Position numbers and translations under genes: made by a program
From: Ochromonas danica
Taxonomy: Eukaryota > Sar > Chrysophyceae > Chromulinales > Chromulinaceae
Direction: 5' to 3'
Assembly (NCBI GenBank): GCA_015146655.1
Contig: VKHL01000096.1
Coordinates: 1 to 64,000, forward strand
Length of the DNA stretch: 64,000 nucleotides
Shown here: one piece after another, positions 27,039-46,215 of the stretch
Position numbering within the stretch: the stretch's first letter is position 1
How the letters are laid out: every line of letters starts with the position of its first letter
The notes under the pieces: model-generated
Databases searched by the model: none
Told to the model about the DNA's origin: nothing
Seen by the model: the letters and a program-made list of their open reading frames with translations, nothing else

Positions 27039-28129
27039 ACTATAACTACACTATACTATAACTACACTATACTATAACTACACTATACTATAGCTACACT
27101 ATACTCTAACTACACTATAACTACACTATACTATAACTACACTATACTATAACTACACTATACTATAGCTACACTATACTCTAACTACACTATACTCTAA
27201 CTACACTATACTCTAACTACACTATACTCTAACTACACTATAACTACACTATACTATAACTACACTATAACTACACTACACTATAACTACACTATACTAT
27301 AACTACACTATACTATAACTACACTATAACTACACTACACTATAACTACACTATACTCTAACTACACTATACTATAACTACACTATACTATAACTACACT
27401 ATAACTACACTACACTATAACTACACTATACTCTAACTACACTATACTATAACTACACTATACTATAACTACACTATAACTACACTACACTATAACTACA
27501 CTATACTCTAACTACACTATACTATAACTACACTATAACTACACTACACTATAACTACACTATAACTACACTACACTATAACTACACTATACTATAACTA
27601 CACTATACTATAGCTACACTATACTCTAACTACACTATACTATAACTACACTATAACTACACTACACTATAACTACACTATACTCTAACTACACTACACT
27701 ATAACTACACTATACTCTAACTACACTACACTATAGCTACACTACACTATAACTACACTACACTATAACTACACTATACTATAACTACACTACACTATAA
27801 CTACACTATACTCTAACTACACTATACTATAACTACACTATACTATAGCTACACTATACTCTAACTACACTATACTCTAACTACACTATACTATAACTAC
27901 ACTATACTATAACTACACTATACTCTAACTACACTATACTATAACTACACTATAGCTACACTATACTATAACTACACTACACTATAACTACACTACACTA
28001 TAACTACACTATACTATAACTACACTATACTATAACTACACTATACTCTAACTACACTATACTATAACTACACTATAGCTACACTATACTATAACTACAC
28101 TACACTATAACTACACTACACTATAACTA

Positions 28130-29175
28130 CACTATACTATAACTACACTATACTATAACTACACTATACTCTAACTACACTATACTCTAACTACACTATA
28201 CTATAACTACACTATAACTACACTATACTATAACTACACTATAACTACACTATACTATAACTACACTACACTATAGCTACACTATACTCTAACTACACTA
28301 TACTCTAACTACACTATACTCTAACTACACTATAACTACACTATACTATAACTACACTATACTATAACTACACTATACTCTAACTACACTATACTCTAAC
28401 TACACTATACTATAACTACACTATAACTACACTATACTATAACTACACTATAACTACACTATACTATAACTACACTACACTATAGCTACACTATACTCTA
28501 ACTACACTATACTCTAACTACACTATACTCTAACTACACTATAACTACACTATACTATAACTACACTATACTATAACTACACTATACTCTAACTACACTA
28601 TACTCTAACTACACTATACTATAACTACACTATAACTACACTATACTATAACTACACTATAACTACACTATACTATAACTACACTACACTATAGCTACAC
28701 TATACTCTAACTACACTATACTCTAACTACACTATACTCTAACTACACTATAACTACACTATACTATAACTACACTATACTATAACTACACTATACTCTA
28801 ACTACACTATACTCTAACTACACTATACTATAACTACACTATAACTACACTATACTATAACTACACTATAACTACACTATACTATAACTACACTACACTA
28901 TAGCTACACTATACTCTAACTACACTATACTCTAACTACACTATACTCTAACTACACTATAACTACACTATACTATAACTACACTATACTATAACTACAC
29001 TATACTCTAACTACACTATACTCTAACTACACTATACTATAACTACACTATAACTACACTATACTATAACTACACTATAACTACACTATACTATAACTAC
29101 ACTACACTATAGCTACACTATACTCTAACTACACTATACTCTAACTACACTATACTCTAACTACACTATAACTAC
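28130..29175. repeat. 209-bp higher-order repeat within the satellite
   Basis: The word CTATAGCTAC recurs at 28271, 28480, 28689, 28898 and 29107, exactly 209 bp apart each time, and the order of unit variants between them is the same. Each 209-bp block is made of eleven 16-bp and three 11-bp units (176 + 33). About five copies are present with partial ends. Confidence 0.93.
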
Positions 29176-29425
29176 ACTACACTATAACTACACTATAACT
29201 ACACTATACTATAACTACACTATACTATAGCTACACTATACTCTAACTACACTATACTCTAACTACACTATACTATAACTACACTATACTATAACTACAC
29301 TATACTCTAACTACACTATACTATAACTACACTATACTATAGCTACACTATACTATAACTACACTACACTATAACTACACTACACTATAATTACACTATA
29401 CTATAACTACACTATACTCTAACTG

Positions 29426-32594: not shown

Positions 32595-32668
32595 AGCCTT
32601 TATTGGGGCTCGAACCCAAGACCTTACGCTTACTAAGCGCATGCTCTAACCAACTGAGCTATAAAGGC
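32595..32668 (-). tRNA. tRNA-Thr (anticodon AGU), copy 1
   Basis: 74-nt cloverleaf: acceptor GCCTTTA with TAAAGGC, discriminator U, D-arm TAGCTCAGTTGGTTAGAGC, anticodon arm TGCGC-TTAGTAA-GCGTA (AGU), T-arm TTGGG-TTCGAGC-CCCAA. Identical in sequence to the copies at 38718 and 43791. The 5' flank (TTCAACG) and T-rich 3' flank are shared too. Confidence 0.96.
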
Positions 32669-32765
32669 GTTGAATATCGTCCAGCAGAGAAGCAATAGAA
32701 TTGCTGATTAGAACTTGTCGTTGCTGTTTGTTGAGTCTCCTTCTTGATTGTTTAATCGATAAAGG

Positions 32766-33401
32766 ATGGGCTCGGCTTGTTCTCATATGAATATCTGGGC
32801 ACTTGCATGTATTATTCGTGCACCTAACTCCATCGCCTTGGACATGATGGAGGACTACGAGAAGCACTGCAAGGCTCTGCCGGATGAAGAGCCTTACGCC
32901 ATCGAGGATGCGCAGTTCTCAGACATCCTCAGTCGACTGGAAGTGCACCCCTCGGACCGCGACGTCTTCGAGGACTACTTCCGCCTCCTGGATAAGCGCA
33001 ACAGAGGAGTGTCGAACCTGCGCCACGTGTTGATCTGTATCGCGATGACGACAGCCAAGGACCTGCCCTCCCTCTTCCTCACCTGCTTGAAGCTGATGGA
33101 CCGCCAGAACTCTCTCATGATCAGCAAGGCAGACCTCGTCATCATCTTCAAGACCATCAACGACACGTGCTACTATGTGGGAGACAAGTACCTGCCCGTG
33201 GAGCAGGTCTACGACCTCGTCAACTCAGTCTTCACCTCCTGCGGCAAGATCGACGGCGACCTCTACTACCCAGACATCCTGGACTATCTCCACCAACACC
33301 CCATAGTCCAGCTCTTTGTCTCTCGGCCATTTCAAGGCACCATAGCCTCGAAGCTCCTCAGTGAGGACCAGATCGAGGCAGTGGCTCGGGCAGACAAATG
33401 A
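32766..33401 (+). CDS. EF-hand-like protein with N-myristoylation signal
   Basis: A single exon of 211 residues. The start MGSACS fits N-myristoylation plus palmitoylation, so membrane attachment is likely. The rest is all-helical with an order like calcineurin-B/CBL proteins: VFEDYFRLLDKRNRGVSN, LFLTCLKLMDRQNSLMIS, LVNSVFTSCGKIDGDLYYPD. The loops (DKRNRG, DRQNSLM, GKIDGDLY) are only partly canonical, so Ca2+ binding may be weak or limited to one site. I would call it an EF-hand-fold adaptor. It follows tRNA-Thr by 97 bp. Confidence 0.72.
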   Translation: MGSACSHMNIWALACIIRAPNSIALDMMEDYEKHCKALPDEEPYAIEDAQFSDILSRLEVHPSDRDVFEDYFRLLDKRNRGVSNLRHVLICIAMTTAKDLPSLFLTCLKLMDRQNSLMISKADLVIIFKTINDTCYYVGDKYLPVEQVYDLVNSVFTSCGKIDGDLYYPDILDYLHQHPIVQLFVSRPFQGTIASKLLSEDQIEAVARADK

Positions 33402-33800
33402 ACCCAATCAGATAGCCAACCAGATAGACAGACAGACGGACAGACAGACAGACTACCAGGTAGGTAGGCAGACAGTTTCTAGCCAACCCTTGGGAGTCAG
33501 ACTGGCTTGATCCAGCTTGAGAATAGGATAGCAGGGGGTCTTCGAAGAAAGATCTCTCTCAGCTTAGTGATCTCTCGAGAGAGATTCTGCAGACTAAGTG
33601 ACTGACTGACTGACTGACTGACTGACTGAGAGGCCAGTGTGTTTGTCGAACTAATTCACTTCTCACTACAGTTACAGTTCCTCCTCCATCATCACTGCTA
33701 GCTACATCATCCATTAATCGTAAGTTATGTTAAGTTAATAAGTCTGTTAATGATCAGCCCAGTTTCTTTTCTCGAGACATCACCTAGTAATAGACAATCA
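33402..33800. repeat. Spacer with CAGA and GACT short tandem repeats
   Basis: 399 bp between convergent genes. GACAGACAGAC repeats at 33425-33455, a self-complementary ATCTCTCTCAGCTT..CTCTCGAGAGAGAT zone at 33551-33582, and (GACT)n at 33601-33628. No gene. Confidence 0.75.
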
Positions 33801-34751
33801 TCATAAATCAAACTCTAGCGATGATGATGCAGGAGCAAAGCGAAGCAGCACTACCTCTTGAGAGAACTTGATCAGAAAGACTGTGCGCTCATTTCCTTCC
33901 ATCTCCAGTGAATGAGCTGAGACCTGTGCGGGCTGGACAGACAGACAATCGGGGTATTTAGAGTATTAGACAATAGGCAGACAGACAGAGTTGGTCAAGT
34001 ATCGGGGAACTTACAAATCGAGCGCTATCCAGGACCCCAGCAATAATGCCAGCAATATACGCCGCACAGTTCAAATGGCCCATATCAGCTGGCACGGAAA
34101 TGAAAGCGTTGGTCACAGGGGAAGATTCGTGAATCATATCTGAGCAGCATGGTAGGGAGAGATGAGAGAAGGAGGTGATGAGAGGAGGCAGTCTCACATT
34201 CGTCTTCATTCTCCATGGATCTCTCGAGATTGTCCGCTGCCTTGTTGAAGAGATACTTCCAGATGGCGTTCGAGATATACTGAAATGAAAATGAAAATGA
34301 AAACTGAAGAATTAGCGGAAGTGCAAACTGAAAGAAGCGAAGAAGATACCCCACCTGGAGAATGTTGACTATCCGGACCTCTCTCTTAGTGAGGCGCTCT
34401 CGACAGCTCACGAGCTCAATGACCTTCTGACCCACTCCGAAGCCAGCAGACTCCAACCTGATCAAGTCAATGGAGAGAAGAAGATCAGCAGAAGACAAAG
34501 ACAGAATCACTGGCTCTCACTTTTTCTCCAAGTCCGCAATGCTCTCAACTCTTGTCTGGTAGTATTGAACAATTTCTGAGAAGAGGAAGGCAAAGGCGCT
34601 CAAGGCCACCTGGCAGGCAGTCAAGAACAAGTGATGTCAGATGACACAGAAAGAGATAGCTCGAGGGTCATTCTACCTCAGTCTTGGGTCGTATGAGAGA
34701 TTTGTCAAGTATGGTCTGTCGAACAATGACTTTCCTTGGATCAGTTGCCAT
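33801..34751 (-). CDS. TRAPPC5: TRAPP complex subunit 5 (Trs31)
   Basis: Six exons, all GT-AG with compatible phases, the first from ATG 34751 (MATDPRKVIVRQTILDKS) and the last ending at 33801. Diagnostic stretches: VALSAFAFLFSEIVQYYQ, then LESAGFGVGQKVIELVSCRE, VRIVNILQ, ISNAIWKYLFNKAADNLERS, ISVPADMGHLNCAAYIAGI and the final ERTVFLIKFSQEV. All of these are typical of TRAPPC5/Trs31, a core subunit of the TRAPP tethering complexes and Rab1 exchange factor. The exon count is the highest for its length in the window. It is head to head with plastid EF-G over 232 bp. Confidence 0.93.
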
Positions 34752-34983
34752 GATTCGCTTTCTTTGATGTTGTTGTTAGTCTTTTCAGTTTTACCACTTG
34801 GACAGATATTGACACTGTGGTAAAAGTGTCAAAACACAGTCTGGGTGTCGTCAGTGTCTCTCTTCGCGGCCACGCCCGCCACGCGCTGCTGGCATCAGAG
34901 AGTGCAACCAACAAGCCAAAGCAACAATCACTTACTCGCTCGCAGCAAGCCCTCCCCCTCTCATCCCAGGAAACCTTCCAGAG
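34752..34983. promoter_or_regulatory. Divergent promoter region, TRAPPC5 / plastid EF-G
   Basis: 232 bp between two head-to-head genes. No defined element recognised; GC-rich toward the EF-G start. Confidence 0.4.
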
Positions 34984-37426
34984 ATGATCTGCTCTCTAGC
35001 CTTGTTGCTAGGGCTAATTGCCCAATCCTATGCTTTTAATTTGCATCATTTTGGTCTGCGACCAGTCAAGCTCCGAACATCCTCCTTGCGCATGGATGGC
35101 GGTGCTGATGTAGTTGCACAAGCAAGAAAAGAAATTGACGACATTGCTCAGATCCGCGAAGGACGCAATGTCCCTTTGACCAAGTACCGCAATATTGGTA
35201 TTATGGCTCACATTGATGCGGGCAAGACCACCACCACTGAGCGCATCCTCTACTACACTGGCAAGGCCTACAAAATTGGCGAAGTGCATGAAGGAACGGC
35301 CACCATGGACTGGATGGAGCAGGAGCAAGAACGCGGCATCACCATCACCTCCGCGGCCACCACCTGCGCCTGGAAGGACTGCCGCATCAACATCATCGAC
35401 ACGTGAGCCACACACTCCTCCCCTCTGACCTGACCACTCCTTTATTTTCTGATATTGGGTGCTGTTACAGTCCTGGCCACGTGGACTTCACCATCGAGGT
35501 GGAGCGCTCTTTGCGAGTGCTGGACGGCGCCGTGGCAGTCTTCGACGGCGTGGCGGGCGTCGAGCCTCAGAGCGAGACCGTCTGGCGCCAGGCCAACAAG
35601 TACAAGGTGCCTCGCATGTGCTTCCTCAACAAGATGGACCGCATGGGCGCCAACTTCTATCGTTGTGTGGAAATGATCGAGAAGCAGCTGGAGACCAAGC
35701 CTGCCGTGCTGCAGCTGCCCATTGGCGTCGAGTCCGACTTCAAGGGAGTCATCGACCTCGTCGCCAACACCGCTGTTATCTGGGAAAACGAAGAGCTCGG
35801 AGCTAAGTACCAGGTCTACCCTCTGGCTGAAGCTCCTGTGGCTGACGAGCTAAAGGCCAAGGCTGCCGACTATCGCGCTCAGCTGATCGAACTGGTCGTC
35901 GAGCAGGACGAAGAGGCGCTCATGAACTATCTTGAAGGCGTGGAGCCTTCCATTGAAAAGCTCAAGGAATGCATTCGTAAGGGAACTCTGTCTTTCTCCT
36001 TCACCCCTGTGATCACCGGCACCGCCTTCAAGAACAAGGGAGTGCAGACCCTGCTAGATGCAGTCGTGGACTACATGCCCTCTCCTCTCGACAGACCTGC
36101 TATCCAGGGACATGACGCCATTGACCTGGAGAAGGTCATTGAGAGACCTTCCGATGACAACGTGCCCTTCTCTGCCTTGGCCTTCAAGATCATGAACGAT
36201 CCCTTCGTGGGAACCCTCACCTTCACCCGCATCTACTCTGGCGTCCTCAAGTCCGGCTCCTCTGTGAGGAACTCTGTCAAGGGCAAGTCTGAGCGCGTGG
36301 GCCGCATGTTGCAAATGCACGCCAACGAGCGCACTGAAGTGAAGGAAGCTCGCGCCGGAGACATCATCGCCCTTGTTGGTCTGAAGGACACCGTCACTGG
36401 AGACACTCTCTGTGACCCTGACAACGCCGTCATCCTCGAGAGAATGGACTTCCCTGACCCTGTGATCAAGATCGCTGTGGAGCCAAAGACCAAGGCTGAC
36501 CAAGAGAAGATGGGCATCGCTCTCAATCGTCTCGCTAAGGTGACGACCTGGTCCATCATAATCAACAAACCTTCTCTTCTGACAACAACACTGACCTGTT
36601 ATCTTAGGAGGATCCTTCCTTCCGCTTCTCTCGTGACGAGGAGACTGGTCAGACCACTATTGAAGGCATGGGAGAGTTGCACCTGGAGATCATCGTGGAC
36701 CGCATGAAGAGAGAGTTCAAGGTCGACTGCAATGTGGGCGAGCCTCAGGTCGCCTATCGTGAGGCTATCACGCAGCCTGCCACCGTCGAGTATGTCCACA
36801 AGAAGCAGTCTGGCGGAGCTGGACAGTACGCCAAGGTGAAGATCGACTTCTTCCCCAAGGAGGATGACTCCAACGCAGACCTCGAGTTTGTCTCCGATAT
36901 CAAGGGAGGTGCCATCCCCAAGGAATACATTCCTGGCGTGCAGAAGGGTATCGAATCTGTCTTGGGCAATGGTGTGGTGGCTGGCTTCCCTGTCTTGGGC
37001 ATCAAGGCTGTTCTTATCGATGGCGGCTTCCACGATGTCGATTCCTCCGTGCTGGCCTTCGAGATTGCTGGCCGCGCTGCCTGCCGTGAGGGCCTCAAGA
37101 AGTGCAAGTCTCGTCTGAAGGAGCCAGTCATGAGGGTGGACGTGCTCAGTCCCGACGAGTTCGTTGGCGATGTCATCGGAGACATCAACTCTCGTCGCGG
37201 ACAGATCACCGAGCTGGGAGAGAGAGGCAACATGCGCACTGTCTCAGCCTTTGTCCCTCTGGCCAACATGTTCCAGTACGTCTCCACATTGCGCTCCTTG
37301 AGCAAGGGCCGCGCTCAGTACTCCATGGAGCTGCACAGCTACGACTTCGTCCCCAGCAATGTAGAGAAGGAGCTGGCCGCCAAGTTCAAGCCCTCAAGTG
37401 CTAAGGAGGAGGAGGAAGAGCAATAA
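34984..37426 (+). CDS. fusA: Elongation factor G, plastid
   Basis: Three exons: 34984-35402, 35471-36539 and 36608-37426. The leader is bipartite: signal peptide [17 protein letters not shown], then Phe and a basic transit stretch. The GTPase domain has [19 protein letters not shown] (P-loop), [11 protein letters not shown] (switch I), [20 protein letters not shown] (switch II) and NKMDR (guanine specificity). Domains II-V follow, ending [19 protein letters not shown]. Full length, all catalytic motifs intact. It drives translocation on plastid ribosomes. Strong G/C bias at third positions marks high expression. Convergent with CHMP5. Confidence 0.97.
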
Positions 37427-37754
37427 ATCACTGCAGGGTTGTTGTTGTTGTCGCAGTCTCCGAGTAAGAAGAAAGGGACAGAAGAGAGAGAGGAGGTGTA
37501 GAGCAGAGCTGATGTTGTGCGTGTGTGTATTTGCAATAAAGAGATGCTGCCTAGTCTATGCTACCCGCTGAGCTGCTAGTCTTCAGTTGAGGGACCAGTT
37601 CTTCAGTTGAGGAGAATCATCCTAAACAAACACAGTAATTACACATTACATTACATTATTACCAAGATGTGATGCTATCATATCTACTGCACCATCTTCT
37701 TCTTGAGACATACAGAGCATGATTCAAGTGGAACAGAACAAGAAGGATGATCGA
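37427..37754. other. Shared 3' region of EF-G and CHMP5
   Basis: 328 bp between convergent genes. Contains a (TTG)n stretch at 37439-37451, AATAAAG at 37536, and a twofold CTTCAGTTGAGG repeat (37580-37612). No gene. Confidence 0.55.
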
Positions 37755-38572
37755 TCAGGTGTAGGAGACGGCGTTAGTGGTGTTAGACAGCTGGGGGGCG
37801 GAGGAGGAGACAGCTTGAGAGGGAGTGCTGATGCTCGTGGGCGCCGCTCCTGGCACTGCAGGCATGGAGACCTGGCTTTCCTCCACGGCGGCAGGGGCCA
37901 TGGCAGCTTCCATCTCCTCCTCCGCCCACTCGCCCTCCAGCCCGGCCAGCTCTGCCTCGAGGTCTGCCTCGTCCAGACCCTCGGGCGTGCCGTAGCTCCT
38001 GCCCAGAATGTCAGAGATCTCTCCCACGTCTTCCAGCATGTCCTCCATGTCGTCCTGCATGTCTTCGATCTCGCTCAGGTTGATCTTCTTGTTCTCCTTC
38101 TTCAGCGTCTTGGCCGCGGCCTGCATGGCCACCACCGTCGACTGCGTGCTCTTCACCGTCTCGATGGCGAAGGCGGTCTGGTCCACGTTGAAGGCCTGGT
38201 TGGCCAGCTGGTCTCTCTGGTTCTCGTACATACGCTTCCGCTTCAAGGTGTCCAAGGCGCGCTTCTTGATGTTCGCAGCGCTGGAGCCCGTCACTTTCTT
38301 CAGCTGCTCGTTGTATCTCCTCAGCTCATTCTCCAGCTCCTTGATCTTCTTGTCCACTAGACAGCCACAGTGAAGACAGAATGACAGTGACAGTGACAAT
38401 GACAGTGACAGTGAGGACAGAGCGAGGAGAGGCAGAGGCAGAGGCAGAGGGAGAGGGAGAGGGTCAGGAAGAGTGACTCACACTCGGCAATGCGGCCGTT
38501 GATTCCAGCTGTGGTCGCCTCCAAAGTAGGAGCTTCAACCTTTGCTTTGGGCTTTCCGAATAATCTATGCAT
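37755..38572 (-). CDS. CHMP5: ESCRT-III subunit CHMP5 / Vps60
   Basis: Two exons: 38572-38482 and 38356-37755; the junction restores AE-LDKKIKELENELRRYNEQL. The start MHRLFGKPKAKVEAPTLEAT is the CHMP5 signature (MNRLFGKxKPK), and the core ALDTLKRKRMYENQRDQL, NVDQTAFAIETVKSTQS, IEDMQDDMEDMLEDVGEI and the SYGTPEGLDEADLEAEL segment match Vps60. It acts late in ESCRT-III filament turnover at endosomes with LIP5/Vta1. The C-terminal Ser/Thr/Pro tail is longer and simpler than in animals. The intron holds GACAGT and GGCAGA short repeats. Confidence 0.95.
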
Positions 38573-38717
38573 TCCACAGAGCTGAGAATAATAACTAAAA
38601 TATAAATAATGACCACCGTACTGTAGGATAACACTATCCCACACTGTTTCTCCCAGACTGCAACAACCACTTTTCATCATGTGGCTTTCTATATCACTGA
38701 TTTTAACAGGTTTCAAC
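38573..38717. promoter_or_regulatory. CHMP5 upstream region
   Basis: 145 bp between the CHMP5 start and a tRNA-Thr gene transcribed away from it. AT-rich, no motif recognised. Confidence 0.4.
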
Positions 38718-38791
38718 GCCTTTATAGCTCAGTTGGTTAGAGCATGCGCTTAGTAAGCGTAAGGTCTTGGGTTCGAGCCCCAATAAAGGCT
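38718..38791 (+). tRNA. tRNA-Thr (anticodon AGU), copy 2
   Basis: Same 74-nt sequence as the copies at 32595 and 43791, on the plus strand. 5' flank TTTCAAC, 3' flank TTTGGACTTTTTT, nearly identical to copy 3 at 43791. Confidence 0.96.
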
Positions 38792-38859
38792 TTTGGACTT
38801 TTTTCTCTCTGGGCCGACTTTTTGCAGTTTAATGAATGTCTGTTTTGTTTATTTAGCTG

Positions 38860-38952
38860 ATGTCAGCCCCTCAACGCTATGCGGTCAAGAAAGATGTAAA
38901 TGGTATCTGCTGCTGGAGTAGTCCAGGACTTTGTGACGATCTTTATGACAAG
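38860..38952 (+). other. Possible orphan exon (31 codons)
   Basis: ATG-started frame MSAPQRYAVKKDVNGICC... ending in AAG just before a good donor (GTGAGA). It is preceded by a pyrimidine-rich TTTATTTAG. No in-frame continuation into the ITPase exon could be established, and the peptide is unrecognised. It could be an upstream exon giving ITPase a different N-terminus, or nothing. Confidence 0.2.
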
Positions 38953-39013
38953 GTGAGATCTCTAGAATCTGGGGGTTTGTACTTCTGGCTCTACTGTGAG
39001 GTCCAGTCCGCTA

Positions 39014-39728
39014 ATGACTTGTTGGTTAGTGGCGAGGCAAGGCATTCTCTACTTCGCAGTCATTCTCACTCTCTGCTCCCTCATACCCTCCTACGCTCTC
39101 AGAGCCTCCTGCGCGCAACGGCTGTCCAGTATGACCACCACTAAGGGCTCCATCACCTTCGTGACAGGAAACAAGAAGAAGTGCGTTAGTCCCTCCCTCT
39201 CTCTCTCCCACTGACCGCTCTGACTCCACTGACTGCTCGCTCTGCTCAGGTTAGAGGAGGTCGTGGCGATCTTCGGGGACCAGATGCCCTTCCAGCTCGA
39301 GGCGCAGAAGATCGACCTCCCAGAGCTGCAGGGAGAGCCAGACCAAGTGGCCATCGAGAAGTGCAGGATCGCCGCCAAGCAAGTGGCAGGGCCTGTGATG
39401 GTCGAGGACACTAGCCTGTGCTTCAATGCCCTTGGAGGACTGCCAGGCATCTACATCAAGGTCCTCCTCCTCTGACTGCTCGCTATGCTGTGTCTCACTC
39501 ACCTGACCTGACCTTCTAACTGATATCTGATGTCTTCTATGCAGTGGTTTCTGGAGAAGACAGGTCACGAGGGTCTGAACAATCTGCTGGCTGCCTACCA
39601 AGACAAGTCTGCCTACGCGCAGTGCATCTTCGCCTTCTCTGAGGGACCGCACGACGAGCCGCGAGTCTTCGTGGGCAGAACCCCCGGGCGAATAGTGCCT
39701 GCACGCGGCCCCACAGACTTTGGGTAAG

Positions 39729-39770
<42 letters not shown>

Positions 39771-39969
39771 CTCTAACTGAGAGAGGTTGGTCACGAACAG
39801 GTGGGATCCAGTCTTCCAGCCCGATGGATTCGATGAGACCTACGCTGAGATGGACAAGGCCATTAAGAACACCATCTCTCATCGCTCTCGCTCTCTTGCG
39901 CTGCTCAAGAACTACCTCATCGACCACGCAGACACTATCGTAGCCGACAAGAAGGCGAAGACTTCTTAA
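39014..39969 (+). CDS. ITPA: Inosine triphosphate pyrophosphatase (HAM1/ITPase)
   Basis: Four exons: 39014-39180, 39250-39460, 39545-39723 and 39801-39969. Hydrolyses ITP, dITP and XTP to monophosphates, keeping deaminated purines out of nucleic acids. Core motifs: [55 protein letters not shown] and ISHRSRSL, all as in eukaryotic ITPA. The first ATG (39014) adds a signal-peptide-like leader ([18 protein letters not shown]) and 15 more residues before an internal Met ([10 protein letters not shown]) that matches the usual ITPA start. Dual targeting, organelle and cytosol, by alternative starts is possible. Confidence 0.93.
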
Positions 39970-40127
39970 GTTAACATCCTCTCCAAATATTTGATTTTCT
40001 TGTTAAATGAAGCAATGGTACAACCAAAGAATAGTAAAAGAAAGTCGTCCAAGTAGACTACAGTAACAGAGATGATACTACGGTTTCAATAGCAAAGTCA
40101 AAGCGAAGAAAAGGCAGAATGGCAAAA

Positions 40128-40199
40128 AGCCTTCAATGGGGATCGAACCCACGACCCTACGCTTACGAAGCGCATGCTCTACCACTGAGCTATAAAGGC
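40128..40199 (-). tRNA. tRNA-Thr (anticodon CGU)
   Basis: 72-nt cloverleaf: acceptor GCCTTTA with TGAAGGC (one G-U), discriminator U, D-arm AGCTCAGTGGTAGAGC, anticodon arm TGCGC-TTCGTAA-GCGTA (CGU), T-arm GTGGG-TTCGATC-CCCAT. Clearly a relative of the AGU copies, with a shorter D-loop. A T5 tract follows directly. Confidence 0.95.
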
Positions 40200-40371
40200 A
40201 CCACTCACGTCATGTTTGCTGTATAATAAGAAGAGCAGTAAAGAGCGGTTGTGGGGATATTTCGGATCTCATCTCTTGATGACGACTTTCTCGCCGCCAT
40301 CGACAGGCTCACGATCCCTCGGCATCATTCGGTGTGAATCTCTCACTTCTCTCTATCTCTAGGCGTCGAAT

Positions 40372-43101
40372 ATGGAGGAGTCGCTGCGCGCTCTGGTCGT
40401 GCGGAGTGGCTTTCTCTCTCTCGCTGACTACGTGAAGCTGCAGTGGATCTCTCGCGCTCCTTACAACTGGTAGACCTCCTCCTCCTCCTCCTCCTACTCC
40501 TCCTCCTCCTCCCTCCACTGACACCTGCACTTGTAGGTTGGACTTCTGGCAGTCTGCTGGAGAAGAGCGCGACGGGCGGAGGCGCTGCAGGCAGTGGCTG
40601 TACGCGCTGCTGAGCTCCGACCTGCTGGACATGAACTATCTGCGCCACTCACAGCTAGCCAAGCAGCTGCGCTGGCGCCTCGAACCCAACGGCGACTCGC
40701 GCATAGACCCGGACAGTCTGGGAGAGCTCTACCGCAGGTCAGCTGAGTCAACCTCCTCCTCCTCCTGCTCCTCCTCCTCCTCCTGCTCCTGCTCCTCCTG
40801 CTCAACCTGTTTTGTCTTCTTCCTCACGCAGAACAGTCGCTGAGATTGACTTCTCCTCGGTGAGCAAGCTGTCCTCGGGGGTGGAGGGCGAGGTAGTGCG
40901 AGATGTAGTGCGCACCTTCCAGCGCGAGCAGTTCTTCCGCGGCGGGCCAGGCAGGCACTTCTTGACTCGCGTGCTGCTAGCCTTCGCGCGCTGCTGCCCT
41001 GAGATGGGCTACTGCCAAGGCATGAACTACGTGGTGGCCGCACTCATCGTGGGGCGGCTGGGCATGGAGGCGACGATCTCTTCCACCCCTCCTCCTCCTG
41101 CTACTCCTCCTCCACAGCTGTCTGACGAGGAGGTGCTGCAGGCTGAGAGCGACGTCTTCTCAGTCTTCTACGCGATGGTCTACAGCGAGAAGCTGTCCCT
41201 GCGGGGGCTGTGGGCGCCTCGACTGCCTCAGCTGAAGCTGCGCGTCTACCACCTCGACCGCCTCACTCGCTGGCAGCTGCCCGGGCTGCACGCGCACCTC
41301 TCGGCCATGCAGATCTCGCCGGAGGTGCTGGCCGCGCAGTGGCTGCTCACAGTCTTCGCCTACGCGCTGCCGCTGCCCCTCCTCCTGCGCTGCTATGACG
41401 CCATCTGCACTGGCGGCTGGCCGGTAGTCTACGGCCTCGCCCTCGCGCTGCTCTCCTTCGGACAGAAGCACTTGCTCGCTGCCAAGGAGATGGAGGGCGT
41501 GGCCATCTTCCTCAAGAAGTGGAACATCGTCACTCCCTCTCCCGCTCCTCCTCCTCCTGCCGCATTGCTGAGCGCGGAGGAGGAGGAGGAGGAGGACTAC
41601 AAGATCGCTCTCTCTCCCGACCTCCTCTTAGGCACTGCCTCGCGTCTGCTGGTGGGGCAGGAGGCGATCAGCAAGCTGTCCGAAGCCTTTGGCGCTGACC
41701 TGCTGGCCCTCGGCAGACTGAGACTGAAAGAGCTAGCCTCCTCCTCCTCCACCTCCACCTCCCCCCTCCCCGGTACCTCTGTAGGCAATACAGGTGATTC
41801 CTTGACTAACACCAGCAGCACTACCTCTTCCTCTGTGACGGAGAAGAAGAGCGCAGAGGTCGTCTTAGCAGAGGACAGAGACTCCTTCTCCTCCACCTCC
41901 AGCTCGGCCACCTCCTCCTCCTCCTGCCAGCCTGTCTTCTGGCTGGCCCGCTACGCCTACAAGCTCACACCGGAGGTAGCACGCGAGCTCGTGGCCATTG
42001 ATCGAGACCTCCGCCAGCTGGACCACTCCATCGACGAGGACAAGGAGGTGCTGCAGCAGAAGATCGTGCATGTCTGCGTGGTTCATCGGGAGGCGGAGGA
42101 GGAGGCGCAGCGCCAGGCAGAGGCTCTGCGCGAGCTACAGCATCGCCTGGAAGTGCTCGACCGCCAAGCGCAGGAGGAGGTGGTGCGCGCCAAGGAGGTC
42201 TACCGCCTCGCTCAGTTGAGTGTGCATCACATCATGCAGGAGGAGGAGGAGGAGGAGGGCAGAGCGGCAGATGGCGGTACCTCTCGCTGGCTGCTAGTCA
42301 AGCCTCCCTCCTTCTTCTCCTCCTCCTCCTCCTCCGCCTCCTCTCCCCGCAAGACAGCTCAGCACAGCCACAGTCGGAGTGACGGCAACCTTCCTCGCGA
42401 CTTAGAGGTAGGAGAGGGAGCAGGAGGAGGAGGAGAGAGCTTTCCCTTCTTCCCGGGTATTAGCACTGGCCCTCTGCGCCACCTCTTCCTGCAGCATTCC
42501 CGCAAGAATGATCGAGTGAACGGTAACGGTAGAGCCCCCTCTGTGGACGAGAAGCACAACACGATAGAGCAGCAGGAGGAGGTCCATGCCACTGTTCCTC
42601 CTCCTCCTCCTCACTCTCCCCCTACCAGAATATTTGAAACCCTTCTCTCCTCCTCCACCAACACCAACACCTCTTCTACTCAGAAGAAGCAACTACAAGA
42701 GGTAGGCCCCTTCCCCTCCTACTCCTACTCCTTCCCTTCTCTGATCGTCGCCTTGCACTTCAGTTGCGCTCCATTGAGGCGAGCAGTCAGCAAGCTCAAC
42801 AGCAGATCATCGCGAAGCAGCGCGCTTGTGAGAGCTGTCGCCGTGAAGTCGATCAAGTGGCGCGAGCCTTGCGGTCGGCGTGGGAACTCGCGGAGGAGTC
42901 CTCGCTGCGCAAGAAAACTCTCTGCGACCAGCTGCAGCTGCTAGTGGAAGACTCCAACAGGTAGACTAGACTAGACTAGACCAGATAGATGCTCCTTCTC
43001 CTTCTCCTTCTCTTTGCTAATGGGAGGTCTGTCTCTTCTGTCTGTCTCACAGGGGAAGGTCACAGAAGCTGCTCTTTGTGGCCAACCATTTTAGTGTCTA
43101 G
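40372..43101 (+). CDS. TBC-domain Rab-GAP with coiled-coil tail
   Basis: Exons 40372-40469, 40537-40737, 40832-42701 and 42764-42960, plus a likely last exon 43053-43101 (pyrimidine-rich acceptor; ends RSQKLLFVANHFSV). If that splice is not used, a stop falls at 42964. The TBC domain shows WQSAGEERDGRRRCRQWLYA, then VVRDVVRTFQREQFF with the arginine finger (RT), and EMGYCQGMNYVVA with the glutamine finger, so catalytic Rab-GAP activity is expected. Downstream are Ser runs, a coiled coil (about residues 420-510: DRQAQEEVVRAKEVYRL), more Ser/Pro/Glu runs and a final coiled coil. Four introns or exon stretches hold (TCC)n tracts. Confidence 0.87.
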
Positions 43102-43790
43102 ATTAGCCTAGCCATGACATAGTCCAGCTCTTCTTCCTAACAATTATTGTATATAACGAAGCACAGAAGTTGTTACTTCTCATCTTCTTAGCTATCACTG
43201 ACACTGTTTTCTCTACCCAGTACTGTGGCCATTAATCGTCTAGAAATTGCAAGCTGTTGAAGACAAAAAGACACACGCTCATGGGTCGTGTGCTGCTGAA
43301 TTGTTGTTATTTTACTCGTTAACCTTTCTTCTACTTGTTTCTCGCTATCCCACTCATTTCCCGCAAGGGTTGGGGGTCAACAGTAAAATACTACTTGTAC
43401 TTGTATCACTTAGACTACGTGAATCACCTTACAGGCCGTAACGAGGGCCAGGTCGGCATAGAAGGACGCGTCTTCATTCATTTGCTTTGCTGCATCATGA
43501 CGGAATATTCCATCGCATCTTTGGCCAGATTCTCGTCCACTTTCAACCTCTCAAATACCTCCTATATCAGTACAAGAACAAGTTATCGCCATTCCGCCCA
43601 CTTTTCTTGTCCCTATCCACAGAAAAATCAGTAATTGATTGTTGATAATAGGATGGGATGGGGCAACTTCGTTCTTGATATCAGCAAGAAACTTGGCGTT
43701 GAAAAGTAATGAACGAAAATTGCCGAGAAACGTTAGCATGTCGTGTTAACTTAAAACTGGGTCTTGGCCCCTCAAGTAAAAAAGTCCAAA
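43102..43790. other. AT-rich spacer, no gene seen
   Basis: 689 bp between the TBC gene and a tRNA-Thr gene. Short ORFs only, without family features; no repeat of note. It is one of the longest gene-free unique stretches and might hide a non-coding RNA, but nothing supports that. Confidence 0.5.
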
Positions 43791-43864
43791 AGCCTTTATT
43801 GGGGCTCGAACCCAAGACCTTACGCTTACTAAGCGCATGCTCTAACCAACTGAGCTATAAAGGC
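43791..43864 (-). tRNA. tRNA-Thr (anticodon AGU), copy 3
   Basis: Identical 74-nt sequence to copies 1 and 2. Flanks match too: 5' TTCAACG, 3' TTTGGACTTTTTTA. The stop of the fusion gene lies 83 bp further inward. Confidence 0.96.
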
Positions 43865-43947: not shown

Positions 43948-46215
43948 TCAGGCGAAAAATAGTTCTGCAGAAGCTGCCGGAGTATAGTGTAAAGGATCCA
44001 AATTGTTATAGTGGCTATCTTTGTGGAGAATGAAGTCCTGTTTAAAGACGATGTGATCCCCTTCCGCTTCTCCTGTCTTGATCAGTTCTTCTTTGTGACC
44101 AAAGCCAGCATCATCAGTTAGAAAAGGATCATCAGGATGAGGATAGAGATGAGTGTTAAGTGGGCGATGTCCGCGGGCGACGACGAGGAAGTGGACGTGT
44201 GCGGGGAGGTTGGTGTGTTGTTGCAGTGCTCGAGCTAGTTCTCCCACGGGACCGTCAGTGGGAAGTGTGTATGACTTGACTGGTAGAGTGCGGAATGACC
44301 AAGTTCCATCTTCATCAGTGACAAATTTGGCTCGGAATCCTAAGTGAGACAGCTCCGCAGAGAAGTTTCTCTGGACGTCGTAGTGCCCCTGATCATCGCA
44401 ATGCCACACATCGAGCACCGCTCCTGCCACTGGATGTCCGCTATCAGAAAGCACTCGTCCTTGGAAAAGATAAACATGCTGGTCAGAGCTTCTTTTCTTG
44501 TCAAATAGCTCCGATCCGTTGTCCAACACTGTGGAGTCACTGAGATGGAATGGGCCCAAAAGAGATCCAGGAGTAACATCTAGTCGGACTTCACCTTCTT
44601 TTCTGGCCTCCCACTTTTCTTCCAGATTAAGTCGGTATTGTATATCTTCAACCAGAGCCTCCAATCCCAGCATATCTGATAGCATGACCATCTCTTGACG
44701 TTCTTTGGAGCAGCGAAGACCCACTCGAGAAAGGAAGTTGACACCAGCTGCCCATTCTTCCACCGTTAGGTCCACTTCTCTTGCAACAGCATGGAGATGT
44801 TGCACAACTCTCGTTAAAATCTCTTTCAAGCGATAATCTTGGCAAGTTTGGTATCGATCGAGCACAATAGCTGTGGATGTGAGAGTTTGGAAAGCTGGTT
44901 GGTCATTCTGTTGAGCGATCATTGATGCTTCGGTGGTGCATGGAGGCCTTGCCCCTACAATAGCGAGTGAAAGAATTGTGGACAATCTCTCCAATTGCAG
45001 AGGAACTGGATTGTCCACTTTTGATGACAAGAGCGTATTGATAAATGTGGGGATGCTGGTCACCCCCATTCCGAGCAAAAGCAACGAGATACGCTCTGGT
45101 AGGAGGAGATATTGCATGTCATAAATGAAAGTGGAAGGATGACAAGTTCCTAGCTCTTCCAGCACTGCGATCAATAGTCTGTCTTGATTGTACCATGCGG
45201 AATAAGCATGAATAGCCAAATGACATTCATCGTATGGAATGCCATGTCTAGCGTGAAGAATATCAACCATGAAATGATGTAGATGAGTCCTTTCCCTTTG
45301 CCAACATTCCCCACAGAGATAGGTAGCATAAAGAAGATCGTCAACAACTCGGTCAGAAATCGCTTCATTCACTACAGTTGTCTTCTCAGTTTTTTCTTGT
45401 GCCCATCTTAGCAAAAGCTTGACGCAAATGTGGATAGCCTCTCTTGCGGCCATAAGAGATAAAGGAGAGATGGCTGGATCATACAGCTGGTCGGTCAGAT
45501 GAGCCATCAGAAGGAAAGTTCCTTTGATGGCTTCTCCTCTTGTAAGAATCGTTGAGAATAGATGTGTATCATATATCACCAAGACAGGCTTGACAATGTC
45601 ATTGCGAGCAACCAATACAGGTGCATTTCTCATACCGTGGATGATATTTGTCAACTCTCCAGCTGCAATCGTTGTGGGCACCACGATTAACTTCAAGGAT
45701 GGAGAAGTTCTACCCAATAGAAATTGCTTCAGAGCCACAGTCTTTGTCGTTCAATATCGCAACATCTCGTTATTCGCACGCTCAGGATTTGCTTTGCAAT
45801 GTGGCAGTACTTACCTTGGCAATATTAGTCATGAAGGCTTTTCCCACAACAAGAACACAGTCAGCTTGCATATCCTCGATCATTGATGTCAAAGCGTTTT
45901 CCACTTCTTCGATGTCATTTGACCACTACACAATCAAAAATCTTTGAACGAGGGGAGAAGATGATACCTTCCCAAGTATACCTGATCGAAGACTTGGTAT
46001 ACTTTATTCTCAATAGTCTTGTGGAAGTCCTTAATGTACGGGATTCGAAGGGTTTCTGAGGAGCTGAAGAGGACAATTTTGTTTACTCGCTGTTCATTTA
46101 TCTCATAGAGACCTTTCTCCAACAAAGTCTTGGGGCCGAGGACCACCTTAGCCAAAGAGTCTCTGGCAGTGAATTGTCTTCTCCTATGTTCGATGGAAGA
46201 GGAAGCGTCGTGCAT
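43948..46215 (-). CDS. Maleylacetate reductase-like / hydroxyquinol 1,2-dioxygenase fusion
   Basis: Three exons: 46215-45982, 45925-45815 and 45741-43948. Residues 1 to about 380 follow an iron-type ADH fold as in maleylacetate reductase: ARDSLAKVVLGPKTLLEKGL, then LIVVPTTIAAGELTN (family VPTTxxxGSE) and THLHHFMVDILHARHGIPYD. Residues about 430-740 are an intradiol dioxygenase: VDLTVEEWAAGVNFLSRVG, GPFHL, GRVLSDSGHPVAGAVLDVWH, YDVQ, SYTLPTDGPVG and PAHVHFLV, with the two Tyr and two His iron ligands kept. The two enzymes would act in sequence on 1,2,4-trihydroxybenzene. Yet the reductase lacks the GGGS nucleotide loop (reads VVGKAFMTNIAK) and the third His of HHxxxH, and the dioxygenase has Leu where Arg usually precedes PAHxH. 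Lower GC than neighbours. Confidence 0.85.

Follow-up and report, generated by a model that had tools for sequence, protein, structure and literature searches.

A 64,000-nucleotide stretch of the freshwater chrysophyte alga Ochromonas danica (GenBank assembly GCA_015146655.1, contig VKHL01000096.1, positions 1 to 64,000; hereafter the window) contains a gene that fuses a maleylacetate reductase (MAR)-like domain to an intradiol ring-cleaving dioxygenase. The gene lies on the minus strand (46215 to 43948), has three exons with GT..AG introns, and encodes a 712-amino-acid product (Table 1). An earlier note, made from the letters alone, had described it as one spliced gene with three well-framed exons and a decayed reductase half. 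Here, we report a computational analysis of the gene, its relatives, and the residues that its two halves have kept, lost, or exchanged.

Among the GT-AG combinations that leave a single open frame, the splice model was selected for its match to the O. danica protein P0001 of EukProt and on homology. P0001 has zero mismatches to the 712-amino-acid product and lacks 17 amino acids at the start of exon 3, a segment also missing from the related protein P0003; we favor the longer form (exon start at 45741) because of its homology to MARs (TVALK in the fusion versus AIALR in MARs). The gene lies where the earlier note put it, and is one spliced gene as described there. Exon 3 lies inside a 600-codon open frame that holds most of the reductase half, the junction, and the whole dioxygenase half, so the fusion is independent of the choice of splice sites. 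The gene is single copy in the host assembly (337 contigs, 31.2 Mb), and its low GC content, also remarked on earlier, was borne out (GC, 0.459; GC at third codon positions [GC3], 0.439, in the exon-3 frame, the lowest of the 20 frames of at least 300 amino acids in the window, antisense frames included).

Pfam recognized Dioxygenase_C (1.1e-30) and Dioxygenase_N (2.6e-24) in the product, and scored its iron-containing alcohol dehydrogenase (Fe-ADH) family at 9.4e-6 and 25.8 bits, under the 31.3-bit cutoff of that family. Against PDB sequences, the N-terminal half matched four MAR or MAR-like chains (best E value, 1.6e-14), and the C-terminal part matched hydroxyquinol dioxygenases best (E value, 7.8e-44). 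In the predicted models, the N-terminal half takes the Fe-ADH/MAR fold, as a MAR over 338 residues, and the C-terminal half takes the intradiol dioxygenase fold; the dioxygenase half was modeled separately, that part being poor in the first model. The Pfam and PDB matches, with the junction inside exon 3, confirm the two-domain fusion.

Three further proteins carry the same fusion: P0003 (EukProt; 42% identity across 98% of the query), P0002, and P0004, which has the same unusual residues, is labeled "archaeon" by its source, and is probably a misfiled algal fragment from a misassigned metagenome bin. At least one of the three is eukaryotic; together with the window gene they are the four copies compared below. 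EukProt held only two clusters with the fusion, at the limited sensitivity of the searches, and not the presence in most algae that the earlier note had set against transfer. A profile search with a five-row alignment returned P0001 as the sole match, and a scan of genome contigs for peptide patterns taken from the altered cleft hit 179 stretches, with no relative among them. Literature searches listed no report of a fusion of MAR and dioxygenase in algae.

Residues were compared with 34 MAR rows and 135 dioxygenase rows, picked by similarity (>100 bits or returned as relatives) and not as a random sample. A column was scored only if letters were present in three or more copies and in no fewer than 80% of the other rows (271 and 248 columns), which left out the GGGS nucleotide loop. 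That loop, GGGS in all 32 MAR rows with letters there, reads GKAF in the window protein and GGSD in P0003, and P0002 and P0004 stop short of it. A study of the MAR PcpE (PMC5741723) describes mutants, gives Lys238 as essential, and names LHHKLCHTLGG as the MAR signature. The Lys238 column holds F, H, Y, and Y in the four copies (K in 30, R in 2, G in 1, and Q in 1 of the 34 MARs), and the signature reads LHHFMVDILHA in the window protein. The third His of HHxxxH, present in 34/34 MARs, is Asp275 in 4/4 copies, and the His251 position is Tyr in all four; the equivalent of the essential His172 is kept as H196 (His in 34/34 MARs and 4/4 copies, PcpE numbering matched by spacing). The Asp-His-His-His metal-ligand positions of Fe-ADHs read L192, H196, H271, and Y285, and so do not form the ligand set; PMC5125639 gives the ligand spacing and states that MARs work without metal. 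Conservation reaches at least 95% in 47 columns of the 34 MARs; all four copies agree with the MARs in 22 of these and depart from them in 19. Judged by sequence, residues that serve the NADH-dependent reduction of maleylacetate are gone from the N-terminal half, and the absence of MAR residues that the earlier note had read from GKAF and the missing third His holds.

The lost residues do not appear simply to have drifted. In 34 columns the copies all share a residue that is rare elsewhere, and ten of these columns fall within residues 268 to 298 (H268, V274, D275, H278, Y285, D286, A291, H293, A294, and W298), inside the former active-site segment 253-300. This segment is 65% (P0002), 69% (P0003), and 69% (P0004) identical to the window protein and ranks first among the 48-residue spans of the reductase half in each comparison (1/179, tied; 1/220; and 1/181, respectively). 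Identity over the whole reductase half is 52%, 38%, and 40%, and over the dioxygenase half 60%, 55%, and 52%, in the same order. Near Leu192, His196, His271, and Tyr285, at the old metal positions, Asp275 occupies the place of the catalytic His, and H268, H278, D286, H289, and H293 are close in sequence. The description of this half as decayed does not fit well, as many lost residues have been swapped for others invariant in four copies. We judge decay less likely because the cleft segment remains the best conserved span of its half; a function that changed and was then kept, as in a repurposed pocket, fits the pattern better.

In the dioxygenase half, positions Y569, Y606, H630, and H632, which we take from knowledge of the family to be the iron ligands, are kept (135/135 relatives have the same residues; the P0004 sequence stops short of the last three), and in this the earlier note was right. 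This half is not unchanged either, because an invariant Arg, overlooked in that note, is Leu. The Arg stands three residues before the first His ligand in 135/135 relatives, and Leu replaces it in all three fusion copies that reach this point. The RHxxR before PAHxH becomes QHxxL in 3/3 copies; among the 135 other rows, 122 match RHxxR, 3 have P, C, or Q in place of the first R, and 10 do not match the pattern. All copies keep 37 of 47 strongly conserved dioxygenase columns. The Arg would correspond to Arg457 of protocatechuate 3,4-dioxygenase, the loss of which cripples that enzyme; for its catalytic role, the literature searched yielded related passages at most. One of the PDB fold matches (2buv) is, by its title, protocatechuate 3,4-dioxygenase with the R457S mutation. 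As to the substrate, the best sequence matches are hydroxyquinol enzymes, and by fold catechol enzymes lie within 1 Z unit.

Among the proteins returned by the search, the closest relatives of the dioxygenase half are bacterial, in line with the transfer proposed earlier. Of 72,556 plasmid records searched in translation, 567 gave a match, and in 128 of these one place covered at least 80% of the query. In three annotated plasmid records, the gene immediately 5' of an intradiol dioxygenase gene, on the same strand, encodes a maleylacetate reductase; a fourth, unannotated record has the same order by its reading frames. These four plasmid loci, from the top matches, were compared along with 80 genome loci (the best 80 of at least 596 relatives in a dioxygenase scan), 84 loci in total. 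MAR precedes dioxygenase with <150 nucleotides (nt) between matches in 14 of the 80 genome loci, the order is reversed within 150 nt in 4, both genes are present further apart in 11, and no MAR of >100 bits occurs in the stretch compared in 51; none of these best 80 has a fused MAR-dioxygenase frame. Since plasmid and genome loci show such pairs, the domain order of the alga is a common bacterial neighbor order. A fusion also arose in bacterial-type sequence, in protein P0051 from a metagenome contig, one among 55 proteins returned by the relative search.

Phylogenies of both domains, suggested earlier as a way to a shared donor, were run and named none: the fusion clade, at the end of a long stem, is placed weakly or not at all among relatives. 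For the reductase half, the median tree distance from fusion rows to others was 11.07 (1.77 among the 34 other rows); for the dioxygenase half, it was 5.24 (3.25 among the first 40 of the 135 other rows). By its reductase half, P0051 clusters with a Streptomyces row (support, 96/96), and one clade with the algal fusions was not rejected (approximately unbiased [AU] test, P = 0.152). A transferred gene pair, or a transferred fusion, is the likely source.

With moderate confidence, drawn from sequence and predicted models, we favor a reading in which a transferred pair gave rise to a ring-cleaving C-terminal half of altered specificity and a reused, nonreductive N-terminal pocket. A bacterial-type MAR gene and a neighboring dioxygenase gene would have entered an ancestor of the algal lineage and become one gene. 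The C-terminal half is most likely an Fe(III)-binding enzyme that cleaves the ring of a catechol or of a compound of the hydroxyquinol type, and loss of the conserved Arg may have changed its specificity or rate. The old active-site cleft of the N-terminal half would have been rebuilt with other residues, invariant in the known copies; since residues for NADH-dependent reduction are lost and the cleft is rebuilt in this way, that half is probably a nonreductive pocket that binds the ring-cleavage substrate or product, alters it without NADH, or controls the dioxygenase. A bolder version seems unlikely to us: the former reductase half would have gained, on its MAR fold, a new active site that acts on the product of ring cleavage, needs no NADH, and possibly uses a metal, and the adjoining dioxygenase would have given up its Arg in adapting to a different substrate.

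Several points weigh against the favored reading. Bacterial MARs likewise conserve segment 253-300 best (mean pairwise identity, 0.72 versus 0.42 to 0.53 elsewhere), and its rank among all spans of the protein is 84/424 (P0002), 47/547 (P0003), and 1/376 (P0004), with several dioxygenase spans higher, so the segment stands out within the reductase half only; its limits were first fixed after viewing the alignment. Only four copies are known, with the N-terminal end absent from P0002 and P0004 and the C-terminal end from P0004. The Lys is absent also from 4/34 MAR rows, and P0003 retains GGS in the nucleotide loop; some copies may therefore still bind a nucleotide.

The reductase half could instead be a structural scaffold for dimerization or stability, with cleft residues conserved for packing. 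Fe-ADH folds form dimers, the fusion has lost the MAR Lys and the nucleotide loop, and the cleft is no more conserved than the best dioxygenase spans; yet it is the best conserved span of its half, with invariant His, Asp, and Tyr, where other fold-bearing segments fall to 20 to 50% identity, and we consider a scaffold unlikely. The Leu in place of an invariant Arg in 3/3 copies would also suit a protein in which both halves are catalytically dead and which acts as a sensor or regulator of aromatic compounds. The iron ligands and the conserved dioxygenase columns are kept beyond the needs of a dead domain, however, and we rate a sensor somewhat lower than a scaffold.

Lower still we place a working bifunctional enzyme, in which hydroxyquinol is cleaved and the maleylacetate reduced in place. 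The two reactions are consecutive in the pathway, the genes stand side by side in bacteria, part of the loop is kept in P0003, a few MARs dispense with the Lys, and the Fe-ADH loci scanned in the assembly held no other HHKxxH frame; against this, Lys is gone in 4/4 copies, GKAF replaces GGGS here, and Tyr holds the His251 position throughout. Channeling of maleylacetate through the fusion, raised in the earlier note, is unlikely because the Lys essential in PcpE is missing from every copy, even with the MAR rows that also lack it. That two genes were merged by a bad model, or that the sequence is contamination, is hardly credible: the junction lies within a single stop-free exon and recurs in proteins from other sources, the N-terminal part needs two introns, matching P0001, and neighboring frames resemble ribophorin and fatty-acid desaturase (by eye from the reading frames).

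Like the maleylacetate reductases GraC, MacA, and PcpE (cd08177), the fusion has the MAR fold and the His172 equivalent, and the bacterial MAR gene adjoins a dioxygenase gene; unlike them, it replaces the nucleotide loop, the Lys, the third HHxxxH His, the LPH His, and both signature Gly residues, and P0001 is 20 to 24% identical to 27 bacterial MAR rows. It shares its fold and four iron ligands with hydroxyquinol 1,2-dioxygenases (PnpC, 3n9t; RjTsdC, 8r2x; 1tmx) and differs from them in QHxxL for RHxxR before PAHxH and in an extra C-terminal tail; the dioxygenase half is 29 to 37% identical to the solved hydroxyquinol enzymes and 35 to 42% to the aligned nonfusion rows. P0051 (646 amino acids) has the same domain order and aligns across both halves in a single alignment (29% identity), but it keeps GGGS, LHHKLCH, and the Arg (by eye). 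Side-by-side bacterial genes likewise run MAR then dioxygenase on one strand with a short gap, and give two separate proteins where the alga has one. The component families are already known, and a bacterial-type fusion exists. RefSeq may carry a product name for such bacterial fusions; none was found in this analysis. The gene is a likely case of two neighboring bacterial genes merged into a single eukaryotic one, in which one enzyme half was reengineered and retained.

A family search and a protein query found one intradiol dioxygenase match in the assembly, the fusion gene itself; as the sole one recognized, it is a candidate for a step of aromatic ring cleavage in this eukaryotic alga. Against this stands the described O. 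danica route, extradiol (meta) cleavage, which the fusion enzyme would not perform. Three LigB-type extradiol dioxygenase frames lie close together on both strands at C228:15732-19035, with a possible link to the ring cleavage of the alga. A flavin monooxygenase akin to aromatic hydroxylases was seen at C38:18648-19883, with stop codons inside the matched span that are probably introns, and the phenol-hydroxylase domain PF07976 had no match in the assembly. O. danica is one of a small number of algae for which growth on phenolics has been reported (phenol or p-cresol; PMC8709323).

A bacterial MAR query matched seven other places in the assembly, on contigs C12, C25, and C42 (best E value, 4.4e-28; 33% identity); because these other Fe-ADHs match, the pathway could use another reductase, a further point against the favored reading. 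None of the 13 Fe-ADH loci scanned in the assembly has an HHKxxH or HHRxxH motif, and by sequence the other loci are probably not MARs; six-frame searches may overlook intron-rich genes. Four similar Fe-ADH frames lie within 7 kb at C12:301686-308571, three on one strand and one opposite, and the top models for one C12 frame were L-threonine dehydrogenase and lactaldehyde reductase.

Table 1. Features of the fusion gene, in window coordinates
Feature	Position	Strand	Basis or remark
Whole fusion gene	43948..46215	-	Splice search; stop codon 43948-43950; EukProt P0001 is the same protein minus 17 aa (amino acids)
Exon 1, residues 1-78	45982..46215	-	Splice search
Intron 1, 56 nt, GT..AG	45926..45981	-	Splice model
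Exon 2, residues 79-115, with changed nucleotide loop	45815..45925	-	Splice search
Intron 2, 73 nt, GT..AG	45742..45814	-	Alternative acceptor gives exon start 45690 and a product 17 aa shorter
Exon 3, residues 116-712	43948..45741	-	One open frame spanning both domains
Reductase half, residues 1-385, MAR/Fe-ADH fold	44932..46215 (including both introns)	-	Pfam, PDB sequence, predicted fold
GKAF, residues 106-109, replacing GGGS nucleotide loop	45833..45844	-	Alignment
Former active-site segment, residues 253-300	45187..45330	-	Changed residues invariant in copies, e.g., H268, D275, H278, Y285, D286, H293, W298
Phe272 at MAR Lys position (PcpE Lys238)	45271..45273	-	Alignment; PMC5741723
Asp275 at third His of HHxxxH (PcpE His241)	45262..45264	-	Alignment
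Dioxygenase half, residues 405-690, intradiol dioxygenase	44017..44874	-	Pfam, PDB sequence, predicted fold
Tyr569, iron ligand position	44380..44382	-	Alignment
Tyr606, iron ligand position	44269..44271	-	Alignment
Leu627 replacing conserved Arg	44206..44208	-	Alignment
His630 and His632, iron ligand positions (HVH)	44191..44199	-	Alignment
C-terminal tail, residues 691-712	43951..44016	-	Identity 15/22 to P0002, 11/22 to P0003

Elsewhere in the window, four tRNA-Thr genes (three with anticodon AGT and one with CGT) are spread over 11 kb (32595-43864), the one at 43791-43864 lying shortly past the 3' end of the fusion gene. A 2.4-kb satellite array (27039-29424) consists of about 150 copies of the unit ACTATAACTACACTAT, with the plus strand almost free of G.
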